A stretch of 48,552 nt of DNA, taken from assembly GCA_021154885.1 (NCBI GenBank), contig JAJKHS010000008.1, forward strand, positions 1 to 48,552, read 5' to 3'. The stretch is from Thermoanaerobaculum sp. (GTDB lineage: Bacteria; Acidobacteriota; Thermoanaerobaculia; Multivoradales; UBA5704). The position numbers and the translations under genes were made by a program. Shown here piece by piece: positions 4,357 through 36,093 of the stretch. The notes beneath the pieces were generated by a model. It saw only the letters and a list, made by a program, of their open reading frames with translations. It made no database searches and was not told the origin of the DNA. Position 1 is the stretch's first letter, and the number at the start of each line of letters is the position of its first letter.

Positions 4357-4362
4357 ATTCTA
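4357..4362 (-). promoter_or_regulatory. -10 box for mutM (leaderless)
   Basis: TAGAAT on the minus strand, separated by seven bases from the mutM ATG; there is no room for a ribosome binding site. Confidence 0.5.
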
Positions 4363-4388
4363 TGGCGAACGAGAGCGAACGAGATGAC

Positions 4389-4418
4389 TTGACAATGAGG
4401 CGTAAGTTGGCGTAAAAA
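4389..4418 (+). promoter_or_regulatory. promoter for the radical-SAM-like gene
   Basis: TTGACA (4389-4394) and GTAAAA/TAAAAA (from 4412) are separated by 17-18 bases. The ATG at 4428 is only nine bases beyond the -10 box, so the transcript would begin at or within a few bases of the start codon. Confidence 0.6.
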
Positions 4419-4427
4419 AGGCGCAAC

Positions 4428-4991: not shown

Positions 4992-4992
4992 T

Positions 4993-5274: not shown

Positions 5275-5275
5275 C

Positions 5276-6772: not shown

Positions 6773-6776
6773 CTGG
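6749..6776. repeat. 9-bp tandem repeat over the holA start
   Basis: GGCCATCTG is repeated three times. On the minus strand it encodes Met-Ala-Gln units, giving several in-frame start codons, the same arrangement as at udk. Confidence 0.75.
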
Positions 6777-6841
6777 AAAAGAGACGGACGAAGGCGAGGA
6801 GGCCGCGATGGCGCTCCTCGCCTTGGAGTCTCAGGTTTGGG

Positions 6842-7249
6842 TTATGAGGCCTCGACCTCCAGGAGCCCCTTTTCCGCCAGTTCCTGACAGTCGATGCAGA
6901 AGCGCGCCCAGGGCACCGCCTCGAGGCGCAGGACGTGGATGTTCTGCCCGCAGTTCGCACAGCGCCCGTAGCTCCCCTCTTCCATCCGGCGCAGCGCGTT
7001 CTCGATCTGGAGGAGCGTCGTCCGTTCGGTGTCGGACAGGGAGAACATCAGCTCCCGGTTGTAGGCGTTGTTGGCGCGGTCCACGATGTCTTCCGTCCCG
7101 TCGTCCGCGGACTCCTGCCCCGCCCGGAGGTCCTGCTTGTACATGTTGAGGATCTCGTTCCGCTGGTTCTGCAACCGCTCGCGCAGGGCCTGGTACTGGT
7201 CGTGTTGTGGCTCCTCCACGGTTGGCTTGGCCTTCTCGGTTCTGGCCAC
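6842..7249 (-). CDS. DksA/TraR-family zinc-finger protein
   Basis: A 135-residue protein with an N-terminal coiled coil (YQALRERLQNQRNEILNMY). The acidic tip motif EDIVDRA (DxxDxA-like) inserts into the RNA polymerase secondary channel in DksA. A C4 zinc finger (CANC ... CIDC) precedes the C-terminal helix. I start it at the GTG at 7249 because AAAGGAGAAG lies just before it, although the frame is open to a TTG at 7279. It is expected to modulate transcription of rRNA or stress genes; which of the DksA functions it performs cannot be told from sequence. Confidence 0.88.
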   Translation of the reverse strand: MARTEKAKPTVEEPQHDQYQALRERLQNQRNEILNMYKQDLRAGQESADDGTEDIVDRANNAYNRELMFSLSDTERTTLLQIENALRRMEEGSYGRCANCGQNIHVLRLEAVPWARFCIDCQELAEKGLLEVEAS

Positions 7250-7300
7250 GCTGCTTCTCCTTTCGACAGGGGCGCTCAAAAAAGTTCCCTATGATACCGC

Positions 7301-7786
7301 CTACAAGGGCTCGCGATGATAGCTCATTCCCGCCTCGATCGAGAGCGCGCGGTAGAGCTGCTCGTACAGCACGACCCGTGCCAGCTCGTGGGAGAGCGTC
7401 ATGGGACCCAGCGAGAGGACCGCGCGGGCGCCGTCGACCACGGCGCGGTCGAGGCCGAGGTCGGAGCCGATGAGGAAGGCGATGGGGTGGGGCCACTCCT
7501 CACGCAGGCGGGCGAGGCGCTCGGCGAGCTGCTCCGAGGAGAGCTGTTCGCCCCGGCTGTCGAGGGCGATGCTCCAGGCGGACGGCGGCAGGGCGGCGAG
7601 CAGGGCCTGCCCCTCGGCCCGCAGCCGCTGGGGATCGTCCGCCGCCGCCCGGGCGCGGACGGGCACGTCCCGCACCGGCGTCGATCGAGCGATGCGGGCG
7701 ATGCGGCGCCGGTAGGAGTCGCAGATCTCTTCCCAGTGGGAGCGTTGGTGCCGTCCTGCCCAGAGGACGACGAGCTCGCGGCCCAC
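7301..7786 (-). CDS. rlmH: 23S rRNA pseudouridine-1915 N3-methyltransferase
   Basis: A 161-residue SPOUT methyltransferase. The C-terminal trefoil knot is clear: FLIGSDLGLDRAVVDGA, then LSLGPMTLSHELARVVLYEQLYRALSI, with the usual terminal YHR segment. RlmH methylates pseudouridine 1915 in helix 69 of 23S rRNA on assembled ribosomes. The GTG start at 7786 sits one base after the def stop (TGA-G-GTG), so translation is probably coupled to def; this start gives the family length. Longer readings of the frame overlap def and are rejected. Confidence 0.92.
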   Translation of the reverse strand: MGRELVVLWAGRHQRSHWEEICDSYRRRIARIARSTPVRDVPVRARAAADDPQRLRAEGQALLAALPPSAWSIALDSRGEQLSSEQLAERLARLREEWPHPIAFLIGSDLGLDRAVVDGARAVLSLGPMTLSHELARVVLYEQLYRALSIEAGMSYHREPL

Positions 7787-7787
7787 C

Positions 7788-8336
7788 TCAGCCGACCGCG
7801 GTCTCGTCGAGGTCCGGCTGCGAGCCGCCGACCAGGTAAGCCTCCCACTCGTCGAAGAAGGCCAGGGAGCGGAGGTCCCGCATACGGTCGAGGAAGACGA
7901 TGCCGTTGAGGTGGTCGAACTCGTGCTGGACGATGCGGGCCTCGAAGCCGGAGACCACGTAATCGAGGGGGCGCCCCTCGCGGTCGAGCCCCTGCACCCG
8001 CACCTTCGGATGCCGCGGCACCAGCCCACGCAGGTCGGGGATCGACAGGCACCCCTCCCAGTCGTAGGCCAGCTCCCGGGCCTGCGGGGTGATCATGGGG
8101 TTGACCACCACGTGCAGCGGGATCTCCGGCGGGCCGGCCGCCTGGTAGACGAAGACCTGGGCCTCCTCGCCCACCTGGGGCGCGGCGAGCCCCACGCCGT
8201 GGGATTCGTGCATCGTCTCGATCATGTCGTCGATCAGCGCCTGGAGCTCCGGATCGCCGATCCGCTCCGGCGGGACGGGGAGGGCCGGAGTGCGGAGGGC
8301 GGGGTGGCCGAGGCGGACAATGGTTCTCAGGGGCAT
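7788..8336 (-). CDS. def: peptide deformylase
   Basis: A 182-residue metalloenzyme that removes the formyl group from nascent peptides. All three signature motifs are present: GVGLAAPQ near residue 47, EGCLS near 93 and the metal-binding HEFDH near 138. The first gene of the def-rlmH pair. TATAAT lies eight bases before the ATG, indicating a leaderless transcript. Its start region faces the divergent alpha/beta hydrolase gene. Confidence 0.96.
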   Translation of the reverse strand: MPLRTIVRLGHPALRTPALPVPPERIGDPELQALIDDMIETMHESHGVGLAAPQVGEEAQVFVYQAAGPPEIPLHVVVNPMITPQARELAYDWEGCLSIPDLRGLVPRHPKVRVQGLDREGRPLDYVVSGFEARIVQHEFDHLNGIVFLDRMRDLRSLAFFDEWEAYLVGGSQPDLDETAVG

Positions 8337-8344
8337 GCGCCGGC

Positions 8345-8350
8345 ATTATA
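8345..8350 (-). promoter_or_regulatory. -10 box for def (leaderless)
   Basis: A perfect TATAAT on the minus strand, eight bases before the def ATG. Confidence 0.65.
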
Positions 8351-8390
8351 TCCTGTGGAATATCCTGCGGACTGAAAAGCTCCGCAATGG

Positions 8391-8396
8391 TATCCT
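8391..8396 (+). promoter_or_regulatory. -10 box for the alpha/beta hydrolase gene
   Basis: TATCCT ends eight bases before the ATG at 8405. The same hexamer occurs at 8349-8354 and 8361-8366, so three copies stand in this short divergent region; which is used is unknown. Confidence 0.4.
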
Positions 8397-8404
8397 CCCG
8401 GACC

Positions 8405-9397
8405 ATGGTGAGAGGCACGGGGCGGTCCCTCGCAGGCGATCGTGGACGGCGCTGGACCCGGCGCCTGCTGCTGGCAGGCCTGGCGGTGGGGGTTCCCGTC
8501 GCGGTGGGCGCCCTGCTGCGCCGCCGCGCCGAGCCGCCCGCGGCGCCCCGCTGGGGCCGCGCCCACCGCTACGCCGGCCGCTCCGGCCCCGAGGTGGTCT
8601 TCCAGGAGCTGGGCAGCGGTCCGCCGGTTCTCCTCCTTCACTCCTTCGGTCCCGGCTACGACGCCCAGCAATGGCGCGCCGCCGCCGAGGTCCTGGCCGG
8701 GCGCTACTGCGTCTACGTCCCCGACCTCCCCGGCTGGGGGCGCACCCGCGGCGCCGGAGCCCTCCGGCCTGAGCCGTACCTCGACCTCCTCGCGGACTTC
8801 CTGGCCAGCGTGGTGCGGGAGAAGGCCGTGGTGGTGGCGGCGGGCCTGGCGGCTGCCTATGCCGTCCAGACCGCCGTGGAGCATCCGGGCCGGGTGCGCG
8901 CTCTCGCCCTGGTATCGCCCCTGGGCCTGGGCGACGACGACCCCGCCCTGACCGTGGCCCAATCCTTCGTGGGGAAGCTCCTGAGCGTGCCGTTGCTGTC
9001 CGCCTCGGTGCTGGACGCCCTCACCGGCCGGGCCGCCGTGGAGCACCACCTGCGCAAGGAGGTCTACGCCGCTCCCGAGCGGGTGGACGCGGCTCTCCTC
9101 GAGCATCACTACCGCGCCAGCCACACCCCCGGCGCCAGGGCCGCCCTCGCCGCCTACCTGCGGGGCGACCTCTGGCTGGATGTCGCCGAAGAGCTCTCCG
9201 CGCTCGAAGTGCCCGTCTGGCTCGCCTGGGGCCGGCAGGCCAGGACCCCGCCCGTCGCGACCGCGGACCAGTGGCTCCAGCACCTTCCCGAGGCCGGCCT
9301 CGCCGTCTTCGAAGGCGCCGGCGCCCTCCCCCATGCCGAGGTCCCGGCCCTGTTCTGCAGGGGGCTGGAGCGGTTCCTGGAAGAGTTGCCGGACTAG
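8405..9397 (+). CDS. membrane-anchored alpha/beta hydrolase fold protein without the nucleophile serine
   Basis: The 330-residue protein begins with Arg-rich residues and a hydrophobic helix (LLLAGLAVGVPVAVGALL), so it is probably anchored in the membrane. The fold is clear: HSFGPGYDAQQWR (oxyanion-hole loop), YVPDLPGWGRT, ALALVSPLGLG, PVWLAWGRQ, and a late histidine in LPHAEVP. At the nucleophile elbow, where the family has GxSxG, it reads VVVAAGLAAAYAV, with glycine in the serine position. It is therefore probably not a serine hydrolase; a binding or scaffolding role is possible. An ATG at 8387 in frame is an alternative start. Its stop is in a CTAG shared with the convergent serine hydrolase. 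Confidence 0.8.
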   Translation: MVRGTGRSLAGDRGRRWTRRLLLAGLAVGVPVAVGALLRRRAEPPAAPRWGRAHRYAGRSGPEVVFQELGSGPPVLLLHSFGPGYDAQQWRAAAEVLAGRYCVYVPDLPGWGRTRGAGALRPEPYLDLLADFLASVVREKAVVVAAGLAAAYAVQTAVEHPGRVRALALVSPLGLGDDDPALTVAQSFVGKLLSVPLLSASVLDALTGRAAVEHHLRKEVYAAPERVDAALLEHHYRASHTPGARAALAAYLRGDLWLDVAEELSALEVPVWLAWGRQARTPPVATADQWLQHLPEAGLAVFEGAGALPHAEVPALFCRGLERFLEELPD

Positions 9398-10539
9398 GGG
9401 GCCTGACTCCGGAACACCTCCGCCGTGTCGAAGGCCAGGGCCTCGGCGTTGGTGTCGGAGCTGTTGGACAGGACCATCACCGAGAGGCTCTCCCGGGGGT
9501 AGTGGAGATAGTAGGAGGTGTAGCCCATCCAGAGCCCCGAGTGGCCATAGTAGAGGTTGCCGGTGTCGCCCGCGTAGTCCACGTTCCAGCCGAAACCGTA
9601 GGAGAAGGGCTGGCCGTCGTTGAAGCGGCCGGGCGTGAACATCTCCGCCAGCAGGTCGGCCCGCAGCAGGTAGCCGCCGAAGAGCATGCGGTCGTAGCGG
9701 GCCAGGTCGGCGACGGTCGAATAGACCTCGCCCGAGCCGTAGAGGAAGTTGAGGGAGCTGGAGTCGTCGAGGACCCAGCCGCCCAGGCTCCGGGAGTCCC
9801 AGCCGCCGAGACCCCGGGTGTAGCCCCGGGCTCGCCTGCCCTGGCGCACCCGCGCATCGTCGAAGACGAAAGTGTCCGCCATGCCGGCCGGACCGAAGAT
9901 CCGCTCCTGCATGAACTGTGGAAAGGGCTCTCTGGAGATCCTCTCCACCACCAGGCCCAGCAGGTCGAAGCCCGAGTCGCTGTAGGCGTACCGGGTGCCC
10001 GGCGGGAAGTCGAGGCGGCGCCAGGACGCGAGGAGCCGGAGGGCGTCCTCCGCCGTGGGCCTGCCGGGCCACTCCTCCAGAGCCGCATAGGTGTCCGGAA
10101 TGCCGCTCGTGTTCTGCAGCAGGTGCCGGATCTTGACCCTGCCCCCCCAGCCCCGCATCTCCGGCACGTAACGCACCGCCCGGTCGTCGAGCCGGAGCCT
10201 GCCGTCCTGGACGAGGAGCAGGGCCGCCACCGCCGTCATCTCCTTGCCGCACGAGGCGAGGTGGAAGGCCGTCTCCGGGTCCACCGGCGTCCGCCGGCGC
10301 AGATCGGCGGCGCCGTACCCCGCCTGGAAGACCACCCTCCCCTTGCGCACCACCCCCACGGCCGCCCCCGGAGTGTCCCGATCGAACGCCGCGAAGAGCT
10401 CGTCCAGCCGCTGCCGCGTCGTCTGGCCGGGCCGCGGCCGCCGGCCGGCCTGGGTGACCGAGACCGCCTCCAGCGACAGACAGGCGCAGACGGCGATCCC
10501 CAGCATCGAGATCGAGAGGATGGGATGTCTCCAAGTCAT
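9394..10539 (-). CDS. secreted class-C beta-lactamase-like serine hydrolase
   Basis: A 381-residue protein with an N-terminal signal or anchor sequence. The active-site SxxK is S96-C-G-K99 (HLASCGKEMTAV), followed by the tyrosine motif YSD (YAYSDSGFDLLGLVVERI), which replaces the common YxN. HSGLWMGYTSYY provides the KTG-equivalent HxG. These features define the beta-lactamase/D-aminopeptidase/esterase group (Pfam Beta-lactamase). Substrate cannot be told: peptidase, esterase or penicillin-binding activities all occur. It converges on the alpha/beta hydrolase gene and overlaps it by four bases. Confidence 0.88.
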   Translation of the reverse strand: MTWRHPILSISMLGIAVCACLSLEAVSVTQAGRRPRPGQTTRQRLDELFAAFDRDTPGAAVGVVRKGRVVFQAGYGAADLRRRTPVDPETAFHLASCGKEMTAVAALLLVQDGRLRLDDRAVRYVPEMRGWGGRVKIRHLLQNTSGIPDTYAALEEWPGRPTAEDALRLLASWRRLDFPPGTRYAYSDSGFDLLGLVVERISREPFPQFMQERIFGPAGMADTFVFDDARVRQGRRARGYTRGLGGWDSRSLGGWVLDDSSSLNFLYGSGEVYSTVADLARYDRMLFGGYLLRADLLAEMFTPGRFNDGQPFSYGFGWNVDYAGDTGNLYYGHSGLWMGYTSYYLHYPRESLSVMVLSNSSDTNAEALAFDTAEVFRSQAP

Positions 10540-10738
10540 CTTCGGACCCTCGCCCTGCGGACGAATCGCCCGCGATCAAGATAACTCAGGACGCGAAAAC
10601 CTGCGGGCCGGCGCGGAATCGCCCTTTCAGTTATTCATACCTATTTCTCTTTATATTGAAACGATAGATGCTGGCCAGGGGGCTTGACCGCCTTGCGCCT
10701 TCAGCCGTACTATCTGAGCAAAACCAAAACGGAGAAAC

Positions 10739-10773
10739 TTCCGGAGATGATCTCCGGTAGATGATCTCCGGAA
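10739..10773 (+). promoter_or_regulatory. inverted repeat in the leader of the 10792 gene
   Basis: TTCCGGAGAT (10739-10748) and ATCTCCGGAA (10764-10773) form perfect 10-bp arms. A third partial copy sits between them (GATCTCCGG at 10749-10757), so two alternative hairpins can form. It is 18 bases upstream of the ATG and next to the ribosome binding site AAGGAGGG (10781-10788). It could be an operator or a structured leader controlling translation. Confidence 0.6.
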
Positions 10774-10791
10774 CTTCATGAAGGAGGGAAA

Positions 10792-11124
10792 ATGCTAAGG
10801 ACCAAAGTCTGCTTGCTGACCTTCTGTCTGCTGATCGGGCTGGCCGCCGCCGGCGCGGCGGCACACCATCCCACCTACCTGGTGGGCAACGGCGCCGTCT
10901 CCTCCATCAACCTCGCCCCGGCCGGCATCGTGGTCAAGGGCAAGCACCATGGCACGCAGACGTTCACGCTCGCCGCAGGGGGCGTCGTGGACAACCTCAG
11001 CCACCAGAACGTCGGCTTCGGCGCCATCAAGGTCGGCGACATCGTCCGGGTTCGCTACAAGGTGTCCGGCTCGACCCTGTCGGCCGCGCACATCACCATC
11101 GAAGGTCACGCCAAGCCGCACTGA
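10792..11124 (+). CDS. small secreted protein, DUF5666-like
   Basis: A 110-residue protein with a clear signal peptide (LLTFCLLIGLAAAGAAA, cut before HHPTYL). The mature part has short beta strands: GNGAVSSINLAPAGIVVKG, TQTFTLAAG, KVGDIVRVRYKVSGS, LSAAHITIEG. This is like the OB/barrel-like DUF5666 domains that occur in envelope proteins. It has a strong Shine-Dalgarno AAGGAGGG and an inverted repeat in its leader, in a relatively AT-rich stretch. Bidirectional terminator downstream. Function unknown. Confidence 0.75.
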   Translation: MLRTKVCLLTFCLLIGLAAAGAAAHHPTYLVGNGAVSSINLAPAGIVVKGKHHGTQTFTLAAGGVVDNLSHQNVGFGAIKVGDIVRVRYKVSGSTLSAAHITIEGHAKPH

Positions 11125-11170
11125 CGAGCTGCTGTAGATTTATATCCTTTCTTTGGGTCAACCCACTTCA

Positions 11171-11205
11171 GGAGGGGAGCTGGCTGAGTTCCGCCGCTCC
11201 CCTCC
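11171..11205. terminator. bidirectional terminator-like hairpin
   Basis: GGAGGGGAGC (11171-11180) pairs perfectly with GCTCCCCTCC (11196-11205). It lies between two convergent genes (the 10792 gene and the aquaporin gene). No long T-run follows, so termination efficiency is uncertain. Confidence 0.6.
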
Positions 11206-11267
11206 ATGCTTCAGATCCGCGAAGCTTCAGATTCTCGTTCGATTCTCCAGATTCTCGAAATCGCGCT

Positions 11268-11960
11268 CTACTTCTTCCGCGAGCGCTCCTCCTCGTACAC
11301 CGTCTTGTACAGCAGGCCGGCCGCCACGCCGCCCAGGGCGGGGCCGACGAGGTAGACCCAGAGGTCGGAGAAATTGCCGGTGGCGAGCGCCGGGCCGATG
11401 CTGCGGGCCGGGTTGAGGCTGGCGCCGGTGAGGGGGCCGCCCATCAGGATGCAGAAGGTCAGGGTGAGGCCGATGGCGAGGCCGCCGGGCACGGAGGCCT
11501 TGCCGCTGATGCCGGCGTTCATCACGGCGTTGACCAGGAAGAAGGTCAGGATCGCCTCGAGGACGACCCCGATGGCCGGCGTGACGTTGATGGTCACGTC
11601 CCTCACCTGGAGACCGTGGGCCAGAGCGGTGCGGCCAAGATCGGTTCCCGTGCCGCCCAGCACCCAGGCGAGCACGAAGGCGGCGAGGATGCCGCCGGCG
11701 ATCTGGAAGACGATGTAGGAGAAGGCGCGGGCGGCGTCGATCTTGCCGGCCGCCCAGACGCCCAGGGTCACCGCCGGGTTGATGTGCGTGCCCGAGATGT
11801 GGCCGTAGGCGTAGGCGAAGCCCAACACCACGAGGCCGTGGGCGAAGGCAACGCCCACCAGGCCGCCCAGTCCCAAAGCCCCGGTGCCGGCGCCGATGAA
11901 GATCAGCGCGAAGGTGCCGATGAACTCGGCGAGCAGCGACGTCGACAGCTTGTGGTACAT
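11268..11960 (-). CDS. aquaporin (MIP family)
   Basis: A 230-residue channel with six membrane helices in two homologous halves and both NPA boxes: GTHINPAVTLGVW in loop B and LTGASLNPARSIGPAL in loop E, the latter with the selectivity-filter arginine. The N-terminal LLAEFIGTFALIFIGAG is the family's first helix with its AEF motif. The residues and length fit a water-selective AqpZ-type channel rather than a glycerol facilitator, but this is a judgement from loop spacing. Shine-Dalgarno AAGGAGGG precedes the ATG at 11960. Confidence 0.92.
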   Translation of the reverse strand: MYHKLSTSLLAEFIGTFALIFIGAGTGALGLGGLVGVAFAHGLVVLGFAYAYGHISGTHINPAVTLGVWAAGKIDAARAFSYIVFQIAGGILAAFVLAWVLGGTGTDLGRTALAHGLQVRDVTINVTPAIGVVLEAILTFFLVNAVMNAGISGKASVPGGLAIGLTLTFCILMGGPLTGASLNPARSIGPALATGNFSDLWVYLVGPALGGVAAGLLYKTVYEEERSRKK

Positions 11961-12084
11961 GCAAGCCCTCCTTCAGAGGAAAGACGGACGAAACGGCGGC
12001 GATAGTGTAACGCAGCGCAGCGGCCCCACCGGAATCAGCCGGGATCAGTAAAAAGCAGCGGGCTTTGGCGCCGGCGGTTCCGGT

Positions 12085-12090
12085 TACAAT
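12085..12090 (+). promoter_or_regulatory. -10 box for selD (leaderless)
   Basis: TACAAT ends seven bases before the ATG at 12098; no Shine-Dalgarno sequence can be seen in between. A weak -35 candidate (GCTTTG) lies 17 bases upstream. Confidence 0.55.
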
Positions 12091-12097
12091 CCCCGCC

Positions 12098-13150
12098 ATG
12101 GCACTGTTCCGGCGGAAATTCCGCCTCACCGCCTGCGCCACCACCGGTGGCTGAGCGGCCAAGATAGGTCCGGGGGACCTTTCGGCGATGATCGCCCCGC
12201 TCGTCCGGCTCGCCGGAGGAGATGAGAGGATCCTCGTCGGTCCGGAGACGGGCGACGACGCCGGGGTCTACCTCCTCGACGGCCACGCCCTGGTCGCCAC
12301 GGCCGACTTCATCACCCCGGTGTGCGACGACCCCCGCCGCTTCGGCCGGGTGGCCGCCGCCAACTCGCTCTCGGACGTCTACGCCATGGGGGGCAGGCCC
12401 CTCTTCGCCCTCAACCTCTGCTGCTTCCCGGAGTTGGAGGGGGAGGGCGCGGCGGCGCTGAGCGGCGTCCTCCAGGGCGGCGCCGAGGGCATGGCACAGG
12501 CCGGCGCCGTGCTGCTGGGCGGCCACTCGGTGCGCGACGAGGAGCTGAAGTATGGCCTCTCGGTCGTCGGGCTGGCCGATCCCAAGCGGCTGCTCACCAA
12601 CGCCGACGCCCGGCCTGGGGACCGCCTGATCCTCACCAAGCCCCTAGGCACGGGCGTGCTGGTCAACGCCTTCAAGGTGGACAAGATCGACGAGGCGGGG
12701 CTGGAGCCGGCCCTAAAGGAGATGGAGCGGCTGAACGACGTGGCCGGCCGCCTCGCCATGGAGCACGGCGTGCACGGCGCCACGGACGTCACCGGCTTCG
12801 CGCTGGCCGGCCACGCCATGGGCATGGCCAAGGCGTCCGGCGTGGCGATCCGCTTCGTCTTCGAGCGGCTGTCCGTCCACGACGACTTCTACCGGTTGGT
12901 CAAGGCGGGGGTCACCACCGGCTGCACGGTGGCGAACGAGGACAACGTCCGCGGCATCCTGGAGGACCGGGCCGGGCTCGACCGGCTCCAGCGCGAGATC
13001 CTCTTCGATCCCCAGACCTCGGGCGGCCTCCTTCTCGCGAGCCCGCCCGAGAGCGCTGCCCCCCTGCTCGCCGCCCTCCTCGCCAGCGGCCACCGCGCGG
13101 CCGAGATCGGCGAGGTTCTCGCGGGGCCGCCAAGGATCGAGGTGGTATAG
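12098..13150 (+). CDS. selD: selenide, water dikinase (selenophosphate synthetase), selenocysteine-containing
   Basis: SelD makes selenophosphate from selenide and ATP for selenocysteine and selenouridine synthesis. A frame that stops for a TGA at 12152-12154 would start only at 12188 and lose the catalytic N-terminus. Reading the TGA as selenocysteine gives a 350-residue protein whose N-terminus is TACATTGGUAAKIGPGDL. Sec is at residue 19 and the essential lysine three residues later (Lys22), the exact spacing of Cys17/Lys20 in E. coli SelD. Further conserved blocks: ETGDDAGVY, TADFITPVCDDP, AANSLSDVYAMGG, LLGGHSVRDEELKYGLSV, TDVTGFALAGHA, FDPQTSGGLLLA. A hairpin fitting a bacterial SECIS follows the UGA. 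No selA, selB or selC is in the window. Confidence 0.93.
12152..12187 (+). promoter_or_regulatory. putative bacterial SECIS element of selD
   Basis: It begins with the UGA codon (12152-12154). AGGTC (12166-12170) pairs with GACCT (12176-12180) around a five-base loop CGGGG, 16-20 bases after the UGA, extendable by GCC/GGC across an internal loop. Distance and a G-rich apical loop are as expected for the SelB-binding hairpins of bacteria. Confidence 0.7.
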
Positions 13151-13169
13151 CCTCTTGCCTGGGATTTTC

Positions 13170-13256
13170 CCTGGGACCGCCGGCGTCCCGCCGGCCTTCT
13201 AACTCCGTTTTTAAAAAAGCGGAGTAAGTTGCCGGCGGGACGCCGGCGCTCCCAGG
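13170..13256. repeat. 87-bp compound palindrome between selD and yceH, possibly also a terminator
   Basis: The outer arms CCTGGGA and TCCCAGG flank a self-complementary block GCCGGCGTCCCGCCGGC (13179-13195), whose reverse complement lies at 13231-13247. The centre holds ACTCCG (13202-13207) and CGGAGT (13220-13225) around a T5A6 core. The whole can fold as one long stem or as two smaller stems. It fills the space between two convergent genes, as expected for a bidirectional terminator, but its compound structure resembles dispersed REP-type elements. Confidence 0.75.
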
Positions 13257-13913
13257 CTAAATCCCGAGTTGCCGCTTGAGCTCTTCCAGATCCGACGTCA
13301 GCTTCGCCACCAGCTCCTCCAGGCGCTCCACACGGGAGGAGAGGGCCGGGCGGGCGGCCAGCGCCAGCGCCTCGGGGGGCTCGGAGACCTCCTGGGGCTC
13401 CGGCTCCGGGGCGAGCTCTCCCACCAGGTGGATCCAGCGGATCTCCTTCTGGCCGGGCCGGCGGGGCAGGTCCCGCACCAGGGGCTCGTCGATGGCGGCG
13501 AGCCGGCGCAGGGCCTCCTCCACCTCCTCCACGGAGGCGAAGGAGTGCATCCGCTCGCTGCGGGTGCGCAGCTCGCCCGGGGTCTGGGGACCGCGCAGCA
13601 GCAGCAGCGTCATCAGGGCCTTGCCGGCCCGGTCGAGCCCCCAGCGCCGGACCACGCTCTGCTGCCAGCGCTCGGTGCGGGCCCCTTCGGTGCGCCAGAC
13701 CAGGACGTCCTGGCGCAGGCGGTCGAGGGCGTTGACCACCTGCTCCTCGGTGAGCTGCATCACCGGCTCGCGGTTCGTCTTCTGATTGCATGCCAGGAGG
13801 ATGGCGTTGACGGACAGGGGGATCGTCTCGGGGTTCGTCTGCTCCTTCTCGAGCAGCGAGCCGAGGACCCGGATCTCCACCGGGTCGAGTTGTCTGGGGA
13901 TACGCGTCGACAT
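13257..13913 (-). CDS. YceH-like protein (DUF480/UPF0502)
   Basis: The 218-residue protein matches the DUF480 family: LDPVEIRVLGSLLEKEQTNP at the N-terminus, SVNAILLACNQKTNREPVM, then a second winged-helix-like half (RWGLDRAGKALMTLLLLRGPQTPGELR). The C-terminus is a coiled coil (SRVERLEELVAKLTSDLEELKRQL). Function of the family is not established; the two winged-helix domains suggest nucleic-acid binding. The start at 13913 is chosen because the conserved region begins there and a TAAGAT box lies seven bases before it. The longer frame to 13976 is unlikely. Confidence 0.85.
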   Translation of the reverse strand: MSTRIPRQLDPVEIRVLGSLLEKEQTNPETIPLSVNAILLACNQKTNREPVMQLTEEQVVNALDRLRQDVLVWRTEGARTERWQQSVVRRWGLDRAGKALMTLLLLRGPQTPGELRTRSERMHSFASVEEVEEALRRLAAIDEPLVRDLPRRPGQKEIRWIHLVGELAPEPEPQEVSEPPEALALAARPALSSRVERLEELVAKLTSDLEELKRQLGI

Positions 13914-13920
13914 GCACGCG

Positions 13921-13926
13921 ATCTTA
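13921..13926 (-). promoter_or_regulatory. -10 box for yceH (leaderless)
   Basis: TAAGAT on the minus strand, seven bases before the ATG at 13913. A small hairpin CCGAA-TCTT-TTCGG (13927-13940) is directly upstream and might be an operator. Confidence 0.5.
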
Positions 13927-13940
13927 CCGAATCTTTTCGG

Positions 13941-14319
13941 ACAAACCCCCTTGATTTTTCTCCCGAGAGGTGTCATGATGCGCTCAAATTCCGAATCGGC
14001 GCATAGAATGAGATAAGGTTGGAAGCGGCTTCACGAGAGATCACCCCCCGCCACACCCCCGCAGCAACCCCATCAGCACATATATTTCCTTAGTCGTGCG
14101 ATATATGAGGATCACCAGGCATAGAGGGGGACGCGCGAGAGCCTAGGGATCCAGGAGTATCGAGCCGAGCGCGCGCGACGTACCGACCGGGCGTAGCTCC
14201 TTGCAGTCACCGAGCGCCGACTCGACGCCCCATATGATTTTCCCCCTTTGTGGGGGCCGGAGGATGCCGCCTCGCGCGGCGAACGACAAACCTGTTTCTT
14301 TGTTGCAAGGAGCAAGAGC
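13941..14319 (+). other. long non-coding region ahead of cspA
   Basis: No supported ORF. It has a lower GC stretch with an inverted repeat CATATAT (14079-14085)/ATATATG (14101-14107). It ends in a typical Shine-Dalgarno AAGGAG at 14307-14312. In other bacteria cold-shock genes have long structured 5' leaders that act as temperature-sensitive switches; this region may be one, but I see no conserved cold-box that I can name. Confidence 0.4.
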
Positions 14320-14526
14320 ATGGCTGAACAAGGTACGGTGAAGTGGTTCAATGACGCCAAGGGGTATGGGTTCATCGTGCGCGAGCGGGGCGCGGACGTC
14401 TTCGTCCACCACGCCTCGATCATCGCCGAGGGTTTCCGCACCCTGAGCGAAGGGGACCGGGTCTCTTTCGACGTGGTGGAGGGGCCGAAGGGTCTGCAGG
14501 CCAAGAACGTCGTCAAGATCTCCTGA
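14320..14526 (+). CDS. cspA: cold-shock protein
   Basis: A 68-residue single cold-shock domain (OB fold) with the RNA-binding motifs RNP1 KGYGFIV and RNP2 DVFVHH and the typical start [14 protein letters not shown]. It binds single-stranded RNA/DNA and melts secondary structure. Start at 14320 follows AAGGAG at the right distance; the longer frame upstream is ignored. A strong hairpin follows the stop. The symbol is used in the generic family sense. Confidence 0.95.
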
Positions 14527-14562
14527 CCTGCTTCCACCCGCTGCTTCGATAATCGCGAATCG

Positions 14563-14592
14563 CGCCCTGCCGGGAGCTCTCCTGGCGGGGCG
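14563..14592 (+). terminator. hairpin terminator after cspA
   Basis: CGCCCTGCCGGGAG pairs with CTCCTGGCGGGGCG (two G-U pairs) and is followed by TCGTCGTTT. The stem is long and GC-rich; the T-tract is weak. Confidence 0.6.
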
Positions 14593-14608
14593 TCGTCGTT
14601 TCGGGCAG

Positions 14609-14653
14609 GACAGCAAAGACGGCAGGGACGACAAGGACAAGAAGGACAGAGGG
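14609..14653. repeat. five 9-bp degenerate repeats
   Basis: Consecutive units GACAGCAAA, GACGGCAGG, GACGACAAG, GACAAGAAG and GACAGAGGG. They lie between the cspA terminator and the antiporter promoter and have no coding role that I can see. Confidence 0.6.
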
Positions 14654-14656
14654 AGC

Positions 14657-14662
14657 TAAGAT
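14657..14662 (+). promoter_or_regulatory. -10 box for the antiporter gene (leaderless)
   Basis: TAAGAT ends eight bases before the ATG at 14671, with no Shine-Dalgarno sequence. Confidence 0.5.
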
Positions 14663-15961
14663 CGCGGTGCATGCGCCAGGCCGCCGCCGCCCTCGCCGTC
14701 CTCGGACTCTTCGCCTCCCTCCCGGCGAGCGCGGCAGAGGCCGGCGGCAGTGGCCATGGCGGTCCGGTGGTGCCGGTCCTTCTCGGGCTGGTGCTCATCC
14801 TGGCGGCGGCCAAGGTGGGGGGAGAGATCTTCGAGCGTATGGGCCAGCCGGCCGTGCTGGGCGAGCTGCTGTTCGGGATCGTCCTCGGCAACCTGGCGCT
14901 CGCGGGGTATGGGGGCTTCGGGTTCCTGGCCACGGAGCCGGGGCTCGAGATCCTCGCGCAGCTCGGCGTGATCCTCCTGCTGTTCCAGGTCGGCCTGGAA
15001 TCGAACATCCGGGAGATGCTGTCGGTGGGGTGGTCGAGCCTGCTGGTGGCGGTACTGGGAGTGATCGCTCCCTTCTTCCTCGGCTGGGGGGTCTCGGCCT
15101 GGCTGCTGCCGGGGGAGGAGACCCTGGCCCACCTCTTCATCGGCGCCACCCTCAGCGCCACCAGCGTCGGCATCACGGCCCGGGTCCTCAAGGACCTCGG
15201 AAAAACCTCCACGCGGGAGTCGAAGATCATCCTCGGCGCCGCGGTGATCGACGACGTCCTCGGCCTCGTGATCCTCTCGGTGGTGGCGGGGACGATCAGC
15301 GCCGCGAACACCGGCGGCAGCCTCGCCACCCGGGACGCGCTGGGGATCGTCGCCAAGGCCATCGCCTTTCTCGTGGGCGCGATCCTGGCCGGCGGCTGGC
15401 TCTCCCGCCGCGTCTTCCGGCTGGCGAGCACCCTCCGGGTCCAGGGGCTCCTGCTCGCCCTGTCGCTCGCCGCCTGCTTCCTCCTCTCCTATCTGGCCGA
15501 CCGCATCGGCCTCGCCACCATCGTCGGCGCCTTTGCCGCCGGGCTGATCCTCGACGGCGTGCAGTATCGCGACCTGGGCGAGCGCACCAAGCACACGATC
15601 GAGGAGCTGATCGTTCCCATCGCCGGCTTCCTGGTGCCGGTGTTCTTCGTCCTGATGGGCGTGCGGGTCGATCTCTCGAGCTTCGGCCAGGTGGAGGTGC
15701 TGGGCTTCGCGGCCCTGCTGTCGCTGGCCGCCATCCTGGGCAAGATGATCTGCGCCGCCGGTGTGCTGGAGCCGGGGCTCGACCGCCTCTCGGTGGCGGT
15801 GGGCATGGTGCCGCGGGGAGAGGTGGGACTGATCTTCGCCGGACTGGGCGCCCAGCTCACGCTCCACGGCCGGCGGGTGATCACGCCGCCGGTCTTCGCG
15901 GCCGTGGTGGTGATGGTGGTCGTCACCACCCTCCTCACCCCGCCAGCTCTGAAGATCAGTT

Positions 15962-17929
<1,968 letters not shown>

Positions 17930-17970
17930 CACTCCCCGCCTTCTGAGGAGGCGCGGAACGAAGGAACTGA

Positions 17971-18047
<77 letters not shown>

Positions 18048-18074
18048 TCGAAATCACCGCCGTAGAGGCGTTTC

Positions 18075-18110
18075 AAAGGTAGGGACCGCGAAAGCGGCCC
18101 TACCTTTTTT
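18075..18110 (+). terminator. intrinsic terminator after the tRNA
   Basis: AAAGGTAGGG-A-CCGC pairs with GCGG-CCCTACCTTT around a GAAA tetraloop, followed by TTTTT. A textbook terminator with a one-base bulge. Confidence 0.85.
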
Positions 18111-18166
18111 CCTTCCTGCCCTCTCCACGTCAGCGCATTCGCGCAACTGACTGGGATGGAGCTTGC

Positions 18167-20221
18167 ATGCCGCTCCGGACGAGCGGCGGGCGGGGGGCCC
18201 GGGAGAGGTCTGGCAGATCGATGATCGAGACGGAACCGGAAGTCCAGCAGGAAGAACGGCTCTCCGACCGGGTCAAGAGGGCTCTCCTCGGCGCTCCCCG
18301 GGACGTGGCGGACACCACCCACCTGCACAACATGACGCTGATCGCCTTCCTGGCCTGGGTGGGGCTGGGAGCGGACGGCCTGTCGTCCTCGGCCTACGGC
18401 CCGGAGGAAGCGTTCCGCGCCCTGGGCCAGCACACCTATCTGGCCGTGGGCCTCGCCCTCGCCACGGCGCTGACGGTGCTCATCATCTCCGCCTCCTACA
18501 GCGGCATCATCGAGCAGTTCCCCACCGGCGGCGGCGGTTACGTGGTGGCCTCCCACCTGCTGGGGCCCAGCATCGGCGTCGTCTCCGGCTGTGCCCTGGT
18601 GGTGGACTACGTGCTCACCATCACGGTCTCCATCGCCTCCGGCGGCAATGCCATCTTCAGCTTCCTCCCCGCCCACATGGACGTGTGGAAGCTGCCGGCG
18701 GAGTACGCGGCCATCGTCCTCCTCATCGGTCTCAACCTGCGGGGCGTGAAGGAGTCGGTGCAGGCATTGCTGCCCGTGTTCCTGGTCTTCCTCGCTACCC
18801 ACGCCCTGCTCATCGGCTGGTCGATCACCAGCCATGTGGACAACATCCCGGAGGTCTCCCACCACCTCTCCCAGGGCTTCCACTCGGGTCTCCAGACCCT
18901 GGGGGTGATGGGGATGATGCTGCTGCTGTTGCGCGCCTACGCCCTGGGCGGCGGTACCTACACCGGCATCGAGGCGGTCTCCAACGGTTTGCAGATCATG
19001 CGCGAGCCGCGGGTGGCCACCGGCAAGCGGACGATGGTCTACATGTCCATCTCCCTGGCCTTGACGGCCGGCGGCATCCTCATCGGCTACCTGCTCCTCA
19101 ACGTCCAGCACTTCCCCGGCAAGACGATGAACGCCGTGCTCGCCGAGCGGGCCTTCGGCACCTGGCACCTCGGCGCCATGCCGGTGGGCTACTGGCTGGT
19201 GCTGGTGACGCTGATCTCGGAGGGGCTGCTGCTGTTCGTGGCCGCGCAGGCGGGCTTCATCGACGGGCCGCGGGTGATGGCCAACATGGCGGTGGACTCG
19301 TACCTGCCCCACCGGTTCGCCGCCCTGTCCGAGCAGCTCTCGATGCAGAACGGCGTCCTCCTGATGGGAGTCGCGGCGCTCGCCATGCTCTCCTATACCC
19401 GCGGCAACATCCAGACGCTGGTCTACATGTACTCGATCAACGTGTTCCTGACCTTCTCGCTCTCCCAACTCGGTATGACCCGGTTCTGGAAGGACAGGAA
19501 GAAGGACCTGGCGCGAGTGAAGCACCTCGCGATCCACCTCGTGGCGCTGCTGCTCTGCGTGGGCATCCTGGTGGTGACCGTCTTCGAGCGCTTCACCCAC
19601 GGCGGCTGGGTGACCATCGTCATCACCTCGGTCTTCGTGCTGATCTGCTACGGCATCCACTCCCACTACCGCCGGTCGGCGGAGGGGCTGCGCCAACTCG
19701 ACGACATCCTCGGCTCGCTGCCCGCCACCGGCGAGGCCAAACCCAAGAGCCTGGACCCCAAGGCGCCCACGGCGGTGCTGCTGGTCTCCGGGTTCTCCGG
19801 CTTCGGCGTCCACACGGTGTTGTCGATCCTGCGCTACTTCCCCGGCCTCTACAAACAGTTCATCTTCATCTCCGTGGCCGTGGTGGACTCGGGCTCGTTC
19901 AAGGGCAAGGAGGAGATCGAGGCGCTGAAGCAGCACACCGAGGAGGACCTGGCCAAGTACGTGGACCTCGCCCGGCGCATGGGCTTCGCGGCGGACAGCG
20001 TCTACGGCGTGGGAATCGAGGTGGTCTCCCAGGCCTCCGACCTGTGCGAGCAGGTGGCCAAGCTCTATCCCAAGGCGACGATCTTCACCGGCAAGCTGGT
20101 CTTCCGGCGCGAGCGCTTCTTCTACGGCCTGCTGCACAACGAGACGTCGAAGATCATCCAGCGCCGCCTGCAGTGGGTGGGCGTGCCGATGGTCGTGCTG
20201 CCGATCCGGGCCCGGGTCTAA
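18167..20221 (+). CDS. KimA-like APC-family potassium/amino-acid transporter
   Basis: A 684-residue membrane protein with about 12 helices and a C-terminal cytoplasmic domain. The order of blocks matches the KimA/YdaO potassium importers: GLGADGLSSSAYGPEEAF, EQFPTGGGGYVVASHLLG, CALVVDYVLTITVSIASGG, NLRGVKESV, GGGTYTGIEAVSNGL. The tail (FGVHTVLSILRYFPG, FRRERFFYGLLHNETSKIIQRRLQW) resembles the C-terminal domain found in KimA proteins. Potassium uptake driven by protons is the best guess; amino-acid transport is possible in this superfamily. Start is uncertain: 18167 has GGAG nearby, 18221 is an alternative that removes an Arg-rich extension. It stands alone between two terminators. Confidence 0.85.
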   Translation: MPLRTSGGRGARERSGRSMIETEPEVQQEERLSDRVKRALLGAPRDVADTTHLHNMTLIAFLAWVGLGADGLSSSAYGPEEAFRALGQHTYLAVGLALATALTVLIISASYSGIIEQFPTGGGGYVVASHLLGPSIGVVSGCALVVDYVLTITVSIASGGNAIFSFLPAHMDVWKLPAEYAAIVLLIGLNLRGVKESVQALLPVFLVFLATHALLIGWSITSHVDNIPEVSHHLSQGFHSGLQTLGVMGMMLLLLRAYALGGGTYTGIEAVSNGLQIMREPRVATGKRTMVYMSISLALTAGGILIGYLLLNVQHFPGKTMNAVLAERAFGTWHLGAMPVGYWLVLVTLISEGLLLFVAAQAGFIDGPRVMANMAVDSYLPHRFAALSEQLSMQNGVLLMGVAALAMLSYTRGNIQTLVYMYSINVFLTFSLSQLGMTRFWKDRKKDLARVKHLAIHLVALLLCVGILVVTVFERFTHGGWVTIVITSVFVLICYGIHSHYRRSAEGLRQLDDILGSLPATGEAKPKSLDPKAPTAVLLVSGFSGFGVHTVLSILRYFPGLYKQFIFISVAVVDSGSFKGKEEIEALKQHTEEDLAKYVDLARRMGFAADSVYGVGIEVVSQASDLCEQVAKLYPKATIFTGKLVFRRERFFYGLLHNETSKIIQRRLQWVGVPMVVLPIRARV

Positions 20222-33007: not shown

Positions 33008-34966
33008 TTACCCCCGCGCCATCAGATCCGCCACCGCCTTGTTGAAGCGCACGGGGTCAGGCAGCTCGCCGCCCTCGGCGATGAGACCGTAGCCGAAGAG
33101 GAGCTGGGCGTAGTCTTCGAGCACCGGGTCTTCCTTGTCCTTCTCGAAGCGCTCGCCGATCCTGGTCAGGATCTCGTGCTTCGGGTTGAGCTCCAGGATG
33201 CGGCGCTGCTTGGGGCCGCCGCCCTTGCCCTTCTGCAGGAGCTTTTCGAGCTGCGGGCTGTAGTCGTGCTCGGCGCCCACCAGGCAGACCGGCGAATTGG
33301 TGAGACGGTTGGTGAGGCGCACCTGCTTGACCCAGGTGTCGAGCTTTTTCTGAATGGCATCGAGGAGCGGCTTCATCTGCTCCTCCTTCGCCTTGAGCTC
33401 CTCCTCCGTCTGCTTCTTCTCTTCCTCGCTGCCCAGCGCCACCGTCCCCTTGCCCGCCGACTTCAGCTTCTTGCCGCCGTACTCGTGGAGCGACTGGGTG
33501 AGCAATTCGTCGACCGTGTCCACCAGGTAGAGGACCTCGTAGCCTTTCTCCTTGAACGCCTCCAGGTTGGGAGAGTTCTCCACCTGCGAGCGCGACTCGC
33601 CCGTGAGATAGAAGATCTCGTTCTGCCCCTCCTTCATGCGCTCCACGTACTCCTTGAGCGTGGTGAGCTTCTCCGGATTCTCCGGGTCATGCGACGACTG
33701 GAAGACCAGCAGCTCCAGCAGCTTCTCCTTGTTCTCGTAGTCGGCGCTGACCCCCTCCTTGATGGCGCGGCCGAACTCGGCCCAGAACTTGAGGTAGGTG
33801 TCGGGCTCCTTCTCCCGCATCTCCTGAAGCACGTCGAGGATCTTCTTGGTCAACCCCTTGCGGATGAGGGTGATGAAGCGGTCCTGCTGCAACATCTCGC
33901 GCGAGACGTTGAGCGCCAGGTCCGGCGAGTCCACCACGCCGCGCACGAAGCGCAGGTACTGGGGGAGCAGGTCCTCGCACTTCTCCAGGATCTGGATGCG
34001 CTTGACGTAGAGCTGGAGGCCCGGCTTCGAAGCTACGTAATAGAGGTCGTACGGCGCCTGCGCCGGGACGAACAGCAGCGCCTGGTACTCGATGCGCCCC
34101 TCGGCCTTGTAGGAAATGACCTTGAGCGGCTCGGTCCAGTCGTGGGCGATGTGCTTGTAGAACTCGGTGTAGTCCTCAGGCTTGACCTCGGACTGCGGCC
34201 GGGTCCAGATCGGCTTCATCGTGTTGAGGGTCTTCTCCTCCAGCGGCATCACCGGCTTCTCGCCCGTCTCCTTCTCCTTGGCAAGGTCCTCGATCTCGGG
34301 GTCCTTCTCGGCCTTGAGGACGATCGGGTAGCTGACGAAGTCGGAGTAGCGGCGGACGATGCGGCTGATTACCCAGCGGTCGGAGTATTCGTCGACGCCG
34401 TTGTCCTTGTCCTCGGGCTTCAGATAAAGGGTGATGGAGGTGCCGCGGCCGGATTTCTCCGTCTCTTCGACCGTATAGGTGCCGTCGCCGGTGGACTCCC
34501 AACGGGTGGCGGCCGTCTCGCCCGCCCGGCGAGTCACCAGCACGACGCGCTCGGCGGCCATGAAGGAGGAGTAGAAGCCGACGCCGAACTGGCCGATGAG
34601 CTCGGCGATCGACTGCTTGGACTCGCCTTGCTTGATACGGTCCACCAGCTCGCGGGTGCCGGACTTGGCGATGGTGCCGATGTTGGCGATCACCTCCTCG
34701 CGACTCATGCCGATGCCGTTATCGTGGATGGAGAGGGTGCGCAGGTTGCGGTCCGCCTCCAGGCGGATCTTCAGATCCTCGTCCCCCTCCAGGAGCTCCG
34801 GGCGGGTCAGCGCCTCGAACCGGAGCCGGTCGAGCGCATCGGACGAGTTCGAGATCAGCTCGCGGAGGAAGATCTCCTTGTTCGAGTACAGCGAATGGAT
34901 CATCAGGTCGAGGAGCTGCCGGGTTTCGGCTTGAAACTGCAGGGTCTCGACGGTCGCAGTGGCCAT
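33008..34966 (-). CDS. htpG: chaperone HtpG (Hsp90)
   Basis: A 652-residue Hsp90. The N-terminal GHKL ATPase domain has SNKEIFLRELISNSSDALDRLRF split over the first helices, HDNGIGM, and GQFGVGFYSSFM. The middle domain has the family's FVRGVVDSPDLALNVSREML with the catalytic arginine, and the C-terminal dimerisation domain ends in LLFGYGLIAEGGELPDP. Start at 34966 follows AGGAGGA. The N-terminal MATATVETLQFQAETRQLL is the normal start. The longer frame to 35053 is rejected. A cytosolic ATP-driven chaperone. Confidence 0.96.
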   Translation of the reverse strand: MATATVETLQFQAETRQLLDLMIHSLYSNKEIFLRELISNSSDALDRLRFEALTRPELLEGDEDLKIRLEADRNLRTLSIHDNGIGMSREEVIANIGTIAKSGTRELVDRIKQGESKQSIAELIGQFGVGFYSSFMAAERVVLVTRRAGETAATRWESTGDGTYTVEETEKSGRGTSITLYLKPEDKDNGVDEYSDRWVISRIVRRYSDFVSYPIVLKAEKDPEIEDLAKEKETGEKPVMPLEEKTLNTMKPIWTRPQSEVKPEDYTEFYKHIAHDWTEPLKVISYKAEGRIEYQALLFVPAQAPYDLYYVASKPGLQLYVKRIQILEKCEDLLPQYLRFVRGVVDSPDLALNVSREMLQQDRFITLIRKGLTKKILDVLQEMREKEPDTYLKFWAEFGRAIKEGVSADYENKEKLLELLVFQSSHDPENPEKLTTLKEYVERMKEGQNEIFYLTGESRSQVENSPNLEAFKEKGYEVLYLVDTVDELLTQSLHEYGGKKLKSAGKGTVALGSEEEKKQTEEELKAKEEQMKPLLDAIQKKLDTWVKQVRLTNRLTNSPVCLVGAEHDYSPQLEKLLQKGKGGGPKQRRILELNPKHEILTRIGERFEKDKEDPVLEDYAQLLFGYGLIAEGGELPDPVRFNKAVADLMARG

Positions 34967-35263
34967 GAATGTCCTCCTGGTCTTTGAGTCTAAAGTCCGA
35001 GCCGCGCGCAGAGCGGCGGCGGCCTCCAAGCCGCCCCTTCGAACGCCGCGCACTGGGCTGGGAATTCCCCCTGGCGACTTCCAGCACGAAAGTCTGACGA
35101 CAGGGGCGTCAAGTAAATGTTAGTCGAAGACGCGCAGAATTGCAAGCGGATCGTCTCCCTTGACGACGAGGAAGGCTCGTCGCAAGCTTCAGCCGTCGCG
35201 ATCACGCCGGAGCTTCCAGGGCGGGGCGCATGGCGCGTCATCGCCTCTTCCAAGGAGAGATTC
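34967..35263 (+). other. intergenic region ahead of the lanthipeptide-like gene
   Basis: No supported gene. It must hold the htpG promoter (minus) and the promoter of the 35264 gene (plus). I could not assign either with confidence; TTGACG at 35159-35164 is the only -35-like box on the plus strand, and no matching -10 was found. The only clear element is AAGGAG just before 35264. Confidence 0.3.
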
Positions 35264-35425
35264 ATGAAAAAGCAGATCCGGAAGAAGCTGTCGCTGAGCA
35301 GGGAGACGCTGCGCGGTCTGGAGGAGGGGAGCTTCAAGGATGCAGTCGGCGGCGCCACGGCGCAACGGACCGTCTGCGGCTCCTGCCCGCCTTCGGCGTG
35401 CCATCCCACGCTCTGCTGCCCGTGA
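35264..35425 (+). CDS. lanthipeptide-like RiPP precursor with double-glycine leader
   Basis: A 53-residue peptide. The leader MKKQIRKKLSLSRETLRGLE has the pattern K-K-L-x-L-x-x-E-T-L-R-x-L, which is the hallmark of precursor peptides annotated as class I lanthipeptide/GG-leader natural products. The leader ends in AVGG at residue 30. The 23-residue core then contains five cysteines (38, 41, 46, 51, 52), three threonines and two serines, the raw material for thioether rings. AAGGAG precedes the ATG at the right distance. No LanB/LanC, LanM, protease or exporter gene is in the window, so any modification must be done in trans. An in-frame ORF from 35117 would hide the leader and is rejected. 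Confidence 0.78.
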   Translation: MKKQIRKKLSLSRETLRGLEEGSFKDAVGGATAQRTVCGSCPPSACHPTLCCP

Positions 35426-35438
35426 AGCTTGCGAACGT

Positions 35439-35471
35439 GCCGGGCGGCCGGTGGTGAGCCGGCCGTCCGGC
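35439..35471. terminator. terminator-like hairpin after the precursor peptide gene
   Basis: GCCGGGCGGCCGG (35439-35451) pairs with CCGGCCGTCCGGC (35459-35471) with one G-U pair and a seven-base loop. It separates the precursor gene from the convergent DUF421 gene. Confidence 0.6.
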
Positions 35472-36047
35472 CTAGCCGATCTCGATCCGCACTGTCTGGA
35501 CCCCCTGCTCGACCCGGACCTCCACCACCCGAGGGCTCTCCTTCCTGGTGATCACGCTGATGTCGCCGTTGCGCTCGAAGCGGGCTTCCTGCACGCGGCC
35601 TGGGTCGGTCACGTGGGCGACCAGGCGGAGGGCTTCTTCGAGGTCGCCGGGGCTGAGGCGGAGCCTTCGCACCCCTTCTTCCAGGACCCGGCCGTCCTGG
35701 ATCAGGAGATGCGGGCTCCCCTTGAAGAGCTTGCCCAACCGGCGGTTGCGGAAGGTGACCCAGGCCAGGAACTGATGGGTGACCACCAGCACGATGGACG
35801 CCGCGGCGGTCATGAGCACGGTGCTCGAGCCGTTGATCGCGCGGCTGAGCACCGATCCCAGGACGAAGCCGAGGACCACGTCGAAGGCGGTCTCCCGGCC
35901 GAGGAAGCGGTTGTCCCCGATCCGGAGGATGGCCCAGCCGAAGAGGTAGATGAGAAGCGCGCGGAAGCAGACCTGCAGGGCATTGACGTCCTTGGCCTCC
36001 TGTCCGGCGCCGAAGAGCCATTGCAATCCATGCCAGAGTTGATCCAT
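35472..36047 (-). CDS. DUF421 (YetF-like) membrane protein
   Basis: A 191-residue protein with three N-terminal membrane helices (VCFRALLIYLFGWAILRI, FDVVLGFVLGSVLSRAI, VLMTAAASIVLVVTHQFL). The DUF421 cytoplasmic domain follows (FKGSPHLLIQDGRVLEEGVRRLRLSPGDLEEALR, RVQEARFERNGDISVI). YetF-type proteins are of uncertain function; some have been linked to lipid or spore-related processes. The start at 36047 follows GGAGGTCGAG. It is divergent from the gene at 36663, with the hicBA module lying between them. Confidence 0.85.
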   Translation of the reverse strand: MDQLWHGLQWLFGAGQEAKDVNALQVCFRALLIYLFGWAILRIGDNRFLGRETAFDVVLGFVLGSVLSRAINGSSTVLMTAAASIVLVVTHQFLAWVTFRNRRLGKLFKGSPHLLIQDGRVLEEGVRRLRLSPGDLEEALRLVAHVTDPGRVQEARFERNGDISVITRKESPRVVEVRVEQGVQTVRIEIG

Positions 36048-36093
36048 CTCGACCTCCAATCCATCCCGTCGTCCGCCTCCGAGCGCCTGCAAC

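Follow-up and report, generated by a model that had tools for sequence, protein, structure and literature searches.

How a probable lanthipeptide precursor is matured when no lanthipeptide enzyme is encoded near it is the question raised by a short open reading frame in the DNA of an uncultured acidobacterium (hereafter the host), which is represented by a draft genome only (8.2 Mb, 161 contigs, 96.6% complete). The stretch analysed (48,552 nucleotides; hereafter the window) is the entire contig C8 of this genome. An earlier note, made from these letters alone, had described a 53-residue reading frame preceded by a Shine-Dalgarno (SD) site; its leader closes with GG, and five Cys, three Thr and two Ser are found in its 23-residue core. 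All of these elements were confirmed, and the features of the locus are as follows.

33008-34966, minus strand: htpG (Hsp90), left flank, divergent; host gene outside the system, start codon placed by comparison with G001 in an alignment
35148-35475, no strand: 328-nt segment carrying the precursor gene, versus 11 nt in the same-genus genome G001 (contig C784)
35252-35257, plus strand: SD-like AAGGAG, with the ATG 6 nt downstream
35264-35425, plus strand: precursor peptide ORF (LanA-like), 53 aa
35264-35353, plus strand: leader, 30 codons, L-x-L-x-x-E-T-L motif, GG end
35354-35422, plus strand: core peptide, 23 codons, five Cys and five Ser/Thr
35472-36092, minus strand: YetF/DUF421 protein, right flank; host gene outside the system

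The translation consists of the leader MKKQIRKKLSLSRETLRGLEEGSFKDAVGG followed by the core ATAQRTVCGSCPPSACHPTLCCP. The leader is basic, is 30 residues long and follows the pattern KKLSLSRETLRGLE...GG, with the two glycines at residues 29-30. The core carries Cys at its positions 8, 11, 16, 21 and 22, Thr at 2, 6 and 19, and Ser at 10 and 14, and so contains both Cys and Ser/Thr, as a class I LanA requires. As in exported peptides of the GG-leader/C39 type, a double glycine precedes the core and C39-ABC proteins are encoded in the host genome. The NCBIfam model NF038153 (lant_leader_L1a, 'class I lanthipeptide') aligns with residues 1-30 at an E-value of 2e-4, and its score of 21.5 bits lies 0.5 bit below the cut-off of 22. 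No other NCBIfam model matched the precursor, and a Pfam search yielded no match. RiPP precursors of 53 amino acids are expected to be disordered, and a PDB search returned three matches with E-values from 0.5 to 4.9, which we took as chance.

Built from the remaining 48 leaders of the family described below, without this precursor, a profile scores it at 42.6 bits (E 3.6e-12), whereas the highest score among 2000 shuffled versions of the peptide is 5.6 bits. Its resemblance to the family is not due to chance. The profile of all 49 leaders, which includes this precursor and which was also used to scan LanB loci and stretches of the host's own genome, finds it as the sole match at E<=1 in the 48.5-kb window. 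The third-position GC content (GC3) of the gene is 0.85, compared with 0.93 for the adjoining htpG.

Whole-genome searches placed no LanB-N, LanC-like or C39 match on contig C8. Because the window is the whole of this contig, the absence extends over 35 kb on the left side of the precursor and 13 kb on its right, and the statement in the earlier note that no LanB, LanC, LanM or exporter protease is encoded in the 48.5 kb holds for the three families searched. The precursor does not lie beside LanB/LanC genes, a location that is usual, although not defining, for a class I LanA. Elsewhere in the genome, where the earlier note had advised looking for modification genes, the same searches identified three LanB-N, 16 LanC-like and three C39 matches. 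Among 14 control genomes, C39 matches were common (8/14) and LanB-N was found above its cut-off in none.

The host genome also encodes many relatives of the precursor. A search with the precursor returned 50 matches at E<=10, and NF038153 returned 46 matches at E<=1, 22 of which exceed its cut-off. This model had a match in three of the 14 control genomes, and in none of them above the cut-off. From 52 places entered, 49 precursor peptides were rebuilt, including the one in the window, after three places without a usable start had been dropped (C32:63374, C16:21118 and C34:26581). Two more places found by the search (on C100 and C133), where only middle or core residues matched, were left out of the 52. 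The genome-wide search for further leader peptides suggested earlier was thus productive: the 49 peptides are encoded at 40 loci on 29 contigs, and 33 of these loci hold a single precursor. Start codons were picked partly by SD score and leader ends were set by a cut rule of our own, so core lengths are perhaps off by a few residues.

Across the 49 peptides, the mean pairwise identity is 48% for leaders (22% when shuffled) and 28% for cores (26% when shuffled). Cysteine accounts for 16.4% of core residues versus 0.1% of leader residues. By our cut rule, the leader ends in GG or GGG in 32 of the 49 peptides and in GA or AG in 16. The paired terminal cysteines (CCP) of the window peptide had been considered unusual, a view that does not stand, since CC occurs in seven of the 49 cores, the window core among them, and four peptides of the related genome G010 end in CC. 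One host peptide (contig C88; positions 9985-10173 of locus L098) combines the family leader, at 22.3 bits, with a hydrophobic core devoid of cysteine.

Upstream of the 49 genes we found a strong SD, six pairs of genes with local similarity, and nothing else in common. The SD is purine-rich and falls at -13 to -8, in a set whose starts were partly chosen by SD score. No 6- to 8-mer located between -150 and -21 exceeded the largest count in shuffled sequence, and a common promoter or regulon was rejected for now because no such word is enriched beyond the SD. Within the limits set by short contigs, 45 of the 49 precursors, including that of the window, have no LanB, LanC-like or C39 match within 10 kb on their contig. 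The family looks as if a few enzymes serve a whole peptide library.

Related genomes provide the physical link between this leader and class I enzymes. The host belongs to the same genus as G001 and G002, to the same family as G003 and to the same order as G010. One contig each of G001, G002 and G003 agreed exactly, in all tested 40-mers, with the records JAICSG01 (Thermoanaerobaculia bacterium), QHVW01 (Acidobacteria gp7 AA5) and DIHE01 (Holophagales bacterium UBA5704), respectively, and one contig each of G008, G023 and G029 was likewise identical to a named record. In G010, contig C240 encodes a C39-ABC exporter (incomplete there), one precursor, LanC and LanB, and contig C255 encodes a C39-ABC exporter, six tandem precursors, LanC and LanB. 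This linkage, and the presence of enzymes elsewhere in the host genome, support the earlier idea that the precursor is modified in trans.

The leader is conserved in related genomes, a point on which the earlier note had made its reading depend: at E<=0.01 it occurs in eight of 59 genomes searched, including the host. LanB-N matches below 1e-100 were obtained in nine of the 59, and six more have weaker matches below 1e-10. All eight leader-bearing genomes are among the nine with a strong LanB, and the exception is G024, where a strong LanB match is accompanied by no leader at this threshold. These co-occurrence counts are not independent because the genomes are related. Both LanB domains were confirmed in G000, G003, G008, G010, G023 and G029, and not in G001, G002 and G024. 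Of the best 80 among 138 LanB loci from named genomes, 30 have a family-like leader in the searched flank (E<=0.01), versus none in reversed DNA, and no such leader was found in the searched flank at the remaining 50. Some of these 80 loci are the same contigs as among the 59 genomes.

The size of the family varies strongly between genomes. Leader counts at E<=0.01 are 26 in the host, 25 in G002, 16 in G001, seven in G010 and five in G003, and three further genomes of the 59 have one or two each. When 297 genomes sampled from the phylum, the host among them, were searched, six gave a leader match at E<=0.001, with 17 in the host (25 of 51 candidates scored) and at most two in each of the others; G001, G002, G003 and G010 are absent among the matches of this sample. 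The high counts in the host, G002 and G001 indicate that, within the genomes sampled, the large scattered expansion belongs to the genus of the host. Two arrangements in relatives were observed in passing. In G002 (C540, positions 3069-6966), three tandem LanC-like genes are followed by a family precursor, and several stand-alone LanC proteins per genome may widen the range of ring patterns. In G023 (locus L265, positions 13605-14870), a methyltransferase-like protein (PRMT_C/PrmA), possibly a tailoring enzyme, is encoded between LanB and a C39-ABC exporter.

Considering these results together, we assign a probability of roughly three in four (0.77) to the reading of the window peptide as an orphan precursor of a class I lanthipeptide, modified in trans, and one of about 49 that have a common leader and differing cores. 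Candidates for the enzymes involved are found on several host contigs. Two host proteins, on C75 and C1, carry both the Lant_dehydr_N and the Lant_dehydr_C domain and are ~31% identical, and a C83 protein consists of the LanB-N domain alone. The LanB on C75 (4618-7956, 1112 aa) faces a family precursor that precedes a LanC. This LanB resembles the solved dehydratases 5ehk (MibB) and NisB (4wd9), and it clusters with the LanB proteins of G001, G002 and G003 (the G002 row is unreliable). Another family precursor, again followed by LanC, is present on C1, so that stand-alone LanC proteins are encoded on both contigs. Contig C1 additionally contains reading frames that repeat VSIHAPARGAT / FQSTPPRGGR (locus L115, ~9900-19000), and this region looks like a long CRISPR array.

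All three C39 proteins of the host are C39-ABC exporters. When compared with exporters linked to the leader in other genomes, the C83 exporter yields values of 57% and 54% (G010) and 60% (G023), and the C45 exporter 55% and 54% (G010) and 58% (G023). The C83 protein is the nearest but the C45 protein is close behind, so either one is a candidate. Two further observations concern these same contigs. The C83 stretch (locus L116) holds a small Cys/Ser/Thr-rich reading frame and the LanB-N-only protein (5434-5601 and 6694-9318) together with the exporter; the small reading frame has a different leader type and no NCBIfam match, and the stretch is perhaps a split-LanB RiPP cluster. On C45 (locus L117, 16250-18601), a fusion of HopA1 and LanC-like domains is encoded beside a LanM and the C39-ABC exporter. 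Class V lanthipeptides are the group with which HopA1 domains are associated.

In the mechanism that we propose, the LxLxxETL leader of the window precursor would be bound in trans by a host LanB, for which the C75 protein is the best candidate. This enzyme would dehydrate up to five Ser/Thr residues of the core with glutamyl-tRNA, the cosubstrate described for class I dehydratases (PMC9993889). The calculated monoisotopic mass of the core is 2301.979 Da in its linear, reduced form and would be 2211.926 Da once fully dehydrated. A stand-alone LanC, from C75 or one of those on C1, would then add Cys thiols to give up to five (methyl)lanthionine rings, and removal of the leader after Gly-Gly, like export, would fall to a C39-ABC exporter (C83 or C45). 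We infer the action of the C75 LanB on this precursor, as well as the rings, the cleavage, the export and any activity of the product.

Because the C1 LanB, the C83 LanB-N-only protein and five LanM proteins are also present, the C75 LanB is one candidate among several. Five of the host LanC-like proteins are of the LanM type (DUF4135 plus LanC; one is cut by a contig end) and another is of the LanKC type, combining RamC_N, kinase and LanC domains. A distance of ~5 kb separates one family precursor (C143:50602) from the LanC domain of a LanM. However, when the leader profile was applied to 13 stretches of the host genome carrying LanM, other LanC-like, C39 or C83 genes, the only strong match was that at C143, with chance-level matches (E 0.5 and 0.65) on two more. 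Moreover, the same leader adjoins LanB in G010 and on C75, and NF038153 is the sole NCBIfam model that the window precursor matches, at just under its cut-off. Modification by a LanM, by the C1 LanB or by the C83 protein is therefore unlikely in our estimation.

The precursor might also be a C39-exported peptide that lacks lanthionine, with a disulfide core (microcin-like) or with modifications made by a radical SAM or azole-forming enzyme. Two relatives of the window precursor match the radical-SAM target model TIGR04149 at 16.1 and 21.4 bits, below its cut-off of 25; the window precursor has no match to this model at E<=10. A GMC-family oxidoreductase (ThaO) has been described beside a Cys-rich class II precursor in a metagenome-assembled genome (MAG) of the family UBA5704, and the same account credits an oxidoreductase, TheO, with the installation of thiazoles (PMC13083261). 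However, Ser/Thr residues equal or outnumber Cys in 48 of the 49 host cores, the Cys-free C88 core included, and all eight of the 59 genomes that carry the leader have a strong LanB match. We consider a product of this kind very unlikely.

The window locus also informs on how single precursor genes come and go. The window and G001 share the neighbouring htpG and DUF421 genes, and homology between the two extends up to 35147 and resumes at 35476. The precursor gene lies inside the extra 328 nt and is absent from the corresponding site in G001. Similarly, a gap on C91 measures 868 nt in the host, where two additional precursors are present, versus 88 nt in G001. In two neighbouring gaps compared between G001 and G002, each genome has a precursor where the other has none. 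Single precursor genes are thus present in one sister species and absent from another, and either gain or loss fits these observations. The members of one orthologous pair, G001:C1206 and G002:C637, differ at one of 20 core residues and at five of 30 leader residues, and the near-identical core suggests that selection maintains some cores.

The same comparison bears on whether the window gene is a silent or decaying copy, that is, a family member by descent that has lost its expression. It is missing at this site in G001; the drafts of G001, G002 and G003 hold no clear orthologue, their best match by E-value being 52% identical; and no sigma-70-like promoter was found at 34960-35500. However, the frame is intact and retains its SD, the GG, the full set of Cys and Ser/Thr residues and a GC3 of 0.85, and we regard loss of expression as quite improbable.

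A perfect 12-nt inverted repeat (35180-35191 / 35423-35434) brackets the precursor ORF in the window. Inverted repeats of at least 12 nt occur at two of the 49 precursor loci, where the null mean is 0.07 and the maximum in 30 shuffles is one. The repeat is commoner than expected, yet it is not a family feature. Terminal inverted repeats acting as transposon ends were rejected, since 47 of the 49 loci have none and the arms in the window do not coincide with the limits of the 328-nt segment. Neither inverted repeats nor upstream similarity at the 49 loci revealed a mobile-element signature common to the family.

Leaders of the type seen here have been described before. Class I precursors of Bacteroidetes described by Walker et al. 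(2020), with an LxLxKx5L motif, many of them with GG and matching NF038153, share with the host family the leader motif, the GG end and the LanB, LanC and C39 partners (PMC7268733). As that survey describes them, the Bacteroidetes precursors sit inside clusters, whereas 45 of the 49 host genes are away from enzyme matches, and a class I cluster with ten precursors is presented there as a notable exception (PMC7268733). The survey covered seven genes on each side of LanC-like genes, a span in which scattered precursors would be missed (PMC7268733). Another known system from a MAG of the family UBA5704, the tha cluster, resembles the host in the family named and in having a lanthipeptide precursor with a Cys-rich core, but differs from the host family in that it is described as a single cluster with a class II LanM and a GMC oxidoreductase (PMC13083261). 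Class I enzymes are also documented to be tolerant when used in engineering (PMC12328550).

Natural lanthipeptide systems in which few enzymes act on many substrates are described for class II, where ProcM and SyncM produce the prochlorosins and synechococsins (PMC10783134). Like the host family, these have many scattered precursors with a conserved leader and a very variable core, and few enzymes; they are class II systems with one LanM and Nif11-type leaders, whereas the host has an L1a leader, linked LanB and LanC, and belongs to the Acidobacteriota (PMC10783134). A CCG motif has been tied to the promiscuity of ProcM (PMC10783134). This ProcM-like motif is absent from all LanC and LanM proteins checked in the host, in which three LanC and four LanM proteins have CHG instead (the fifth LanM, at a contig end, was outside the check). 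By analogy, the host family would best be read as a class I counterpart of the prochlorosin system, but its L1a leader, its LanB and LanC partners and the CHG of the checked enzymes place it outside that system. We give an even chance to the fuller proposal that one substrate-tolerant LanB and several LanC proteins process ~49 scattered precursors with unrelated cores, whose genes are gained or lost between sister species as single ~0.3-kb intergenic units.

The open-licence literature that we searched contains no report of scattered class I precursors, of this family, or of a natural class I system with few enzymes and many substrates. Scattered precursor genes of this kind are missed by mining that begins from enzyme genes. 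If the proposal is true, a tolerant natural LanB with ~49 ready substrates would test class I leader recognition that ignores the core, and such a LanB would be a practical enzyme for peptide libraries. In addition, the empty sites in sister species offer a way to observe how natural-product precursors encoded by single genes are gained and lost.
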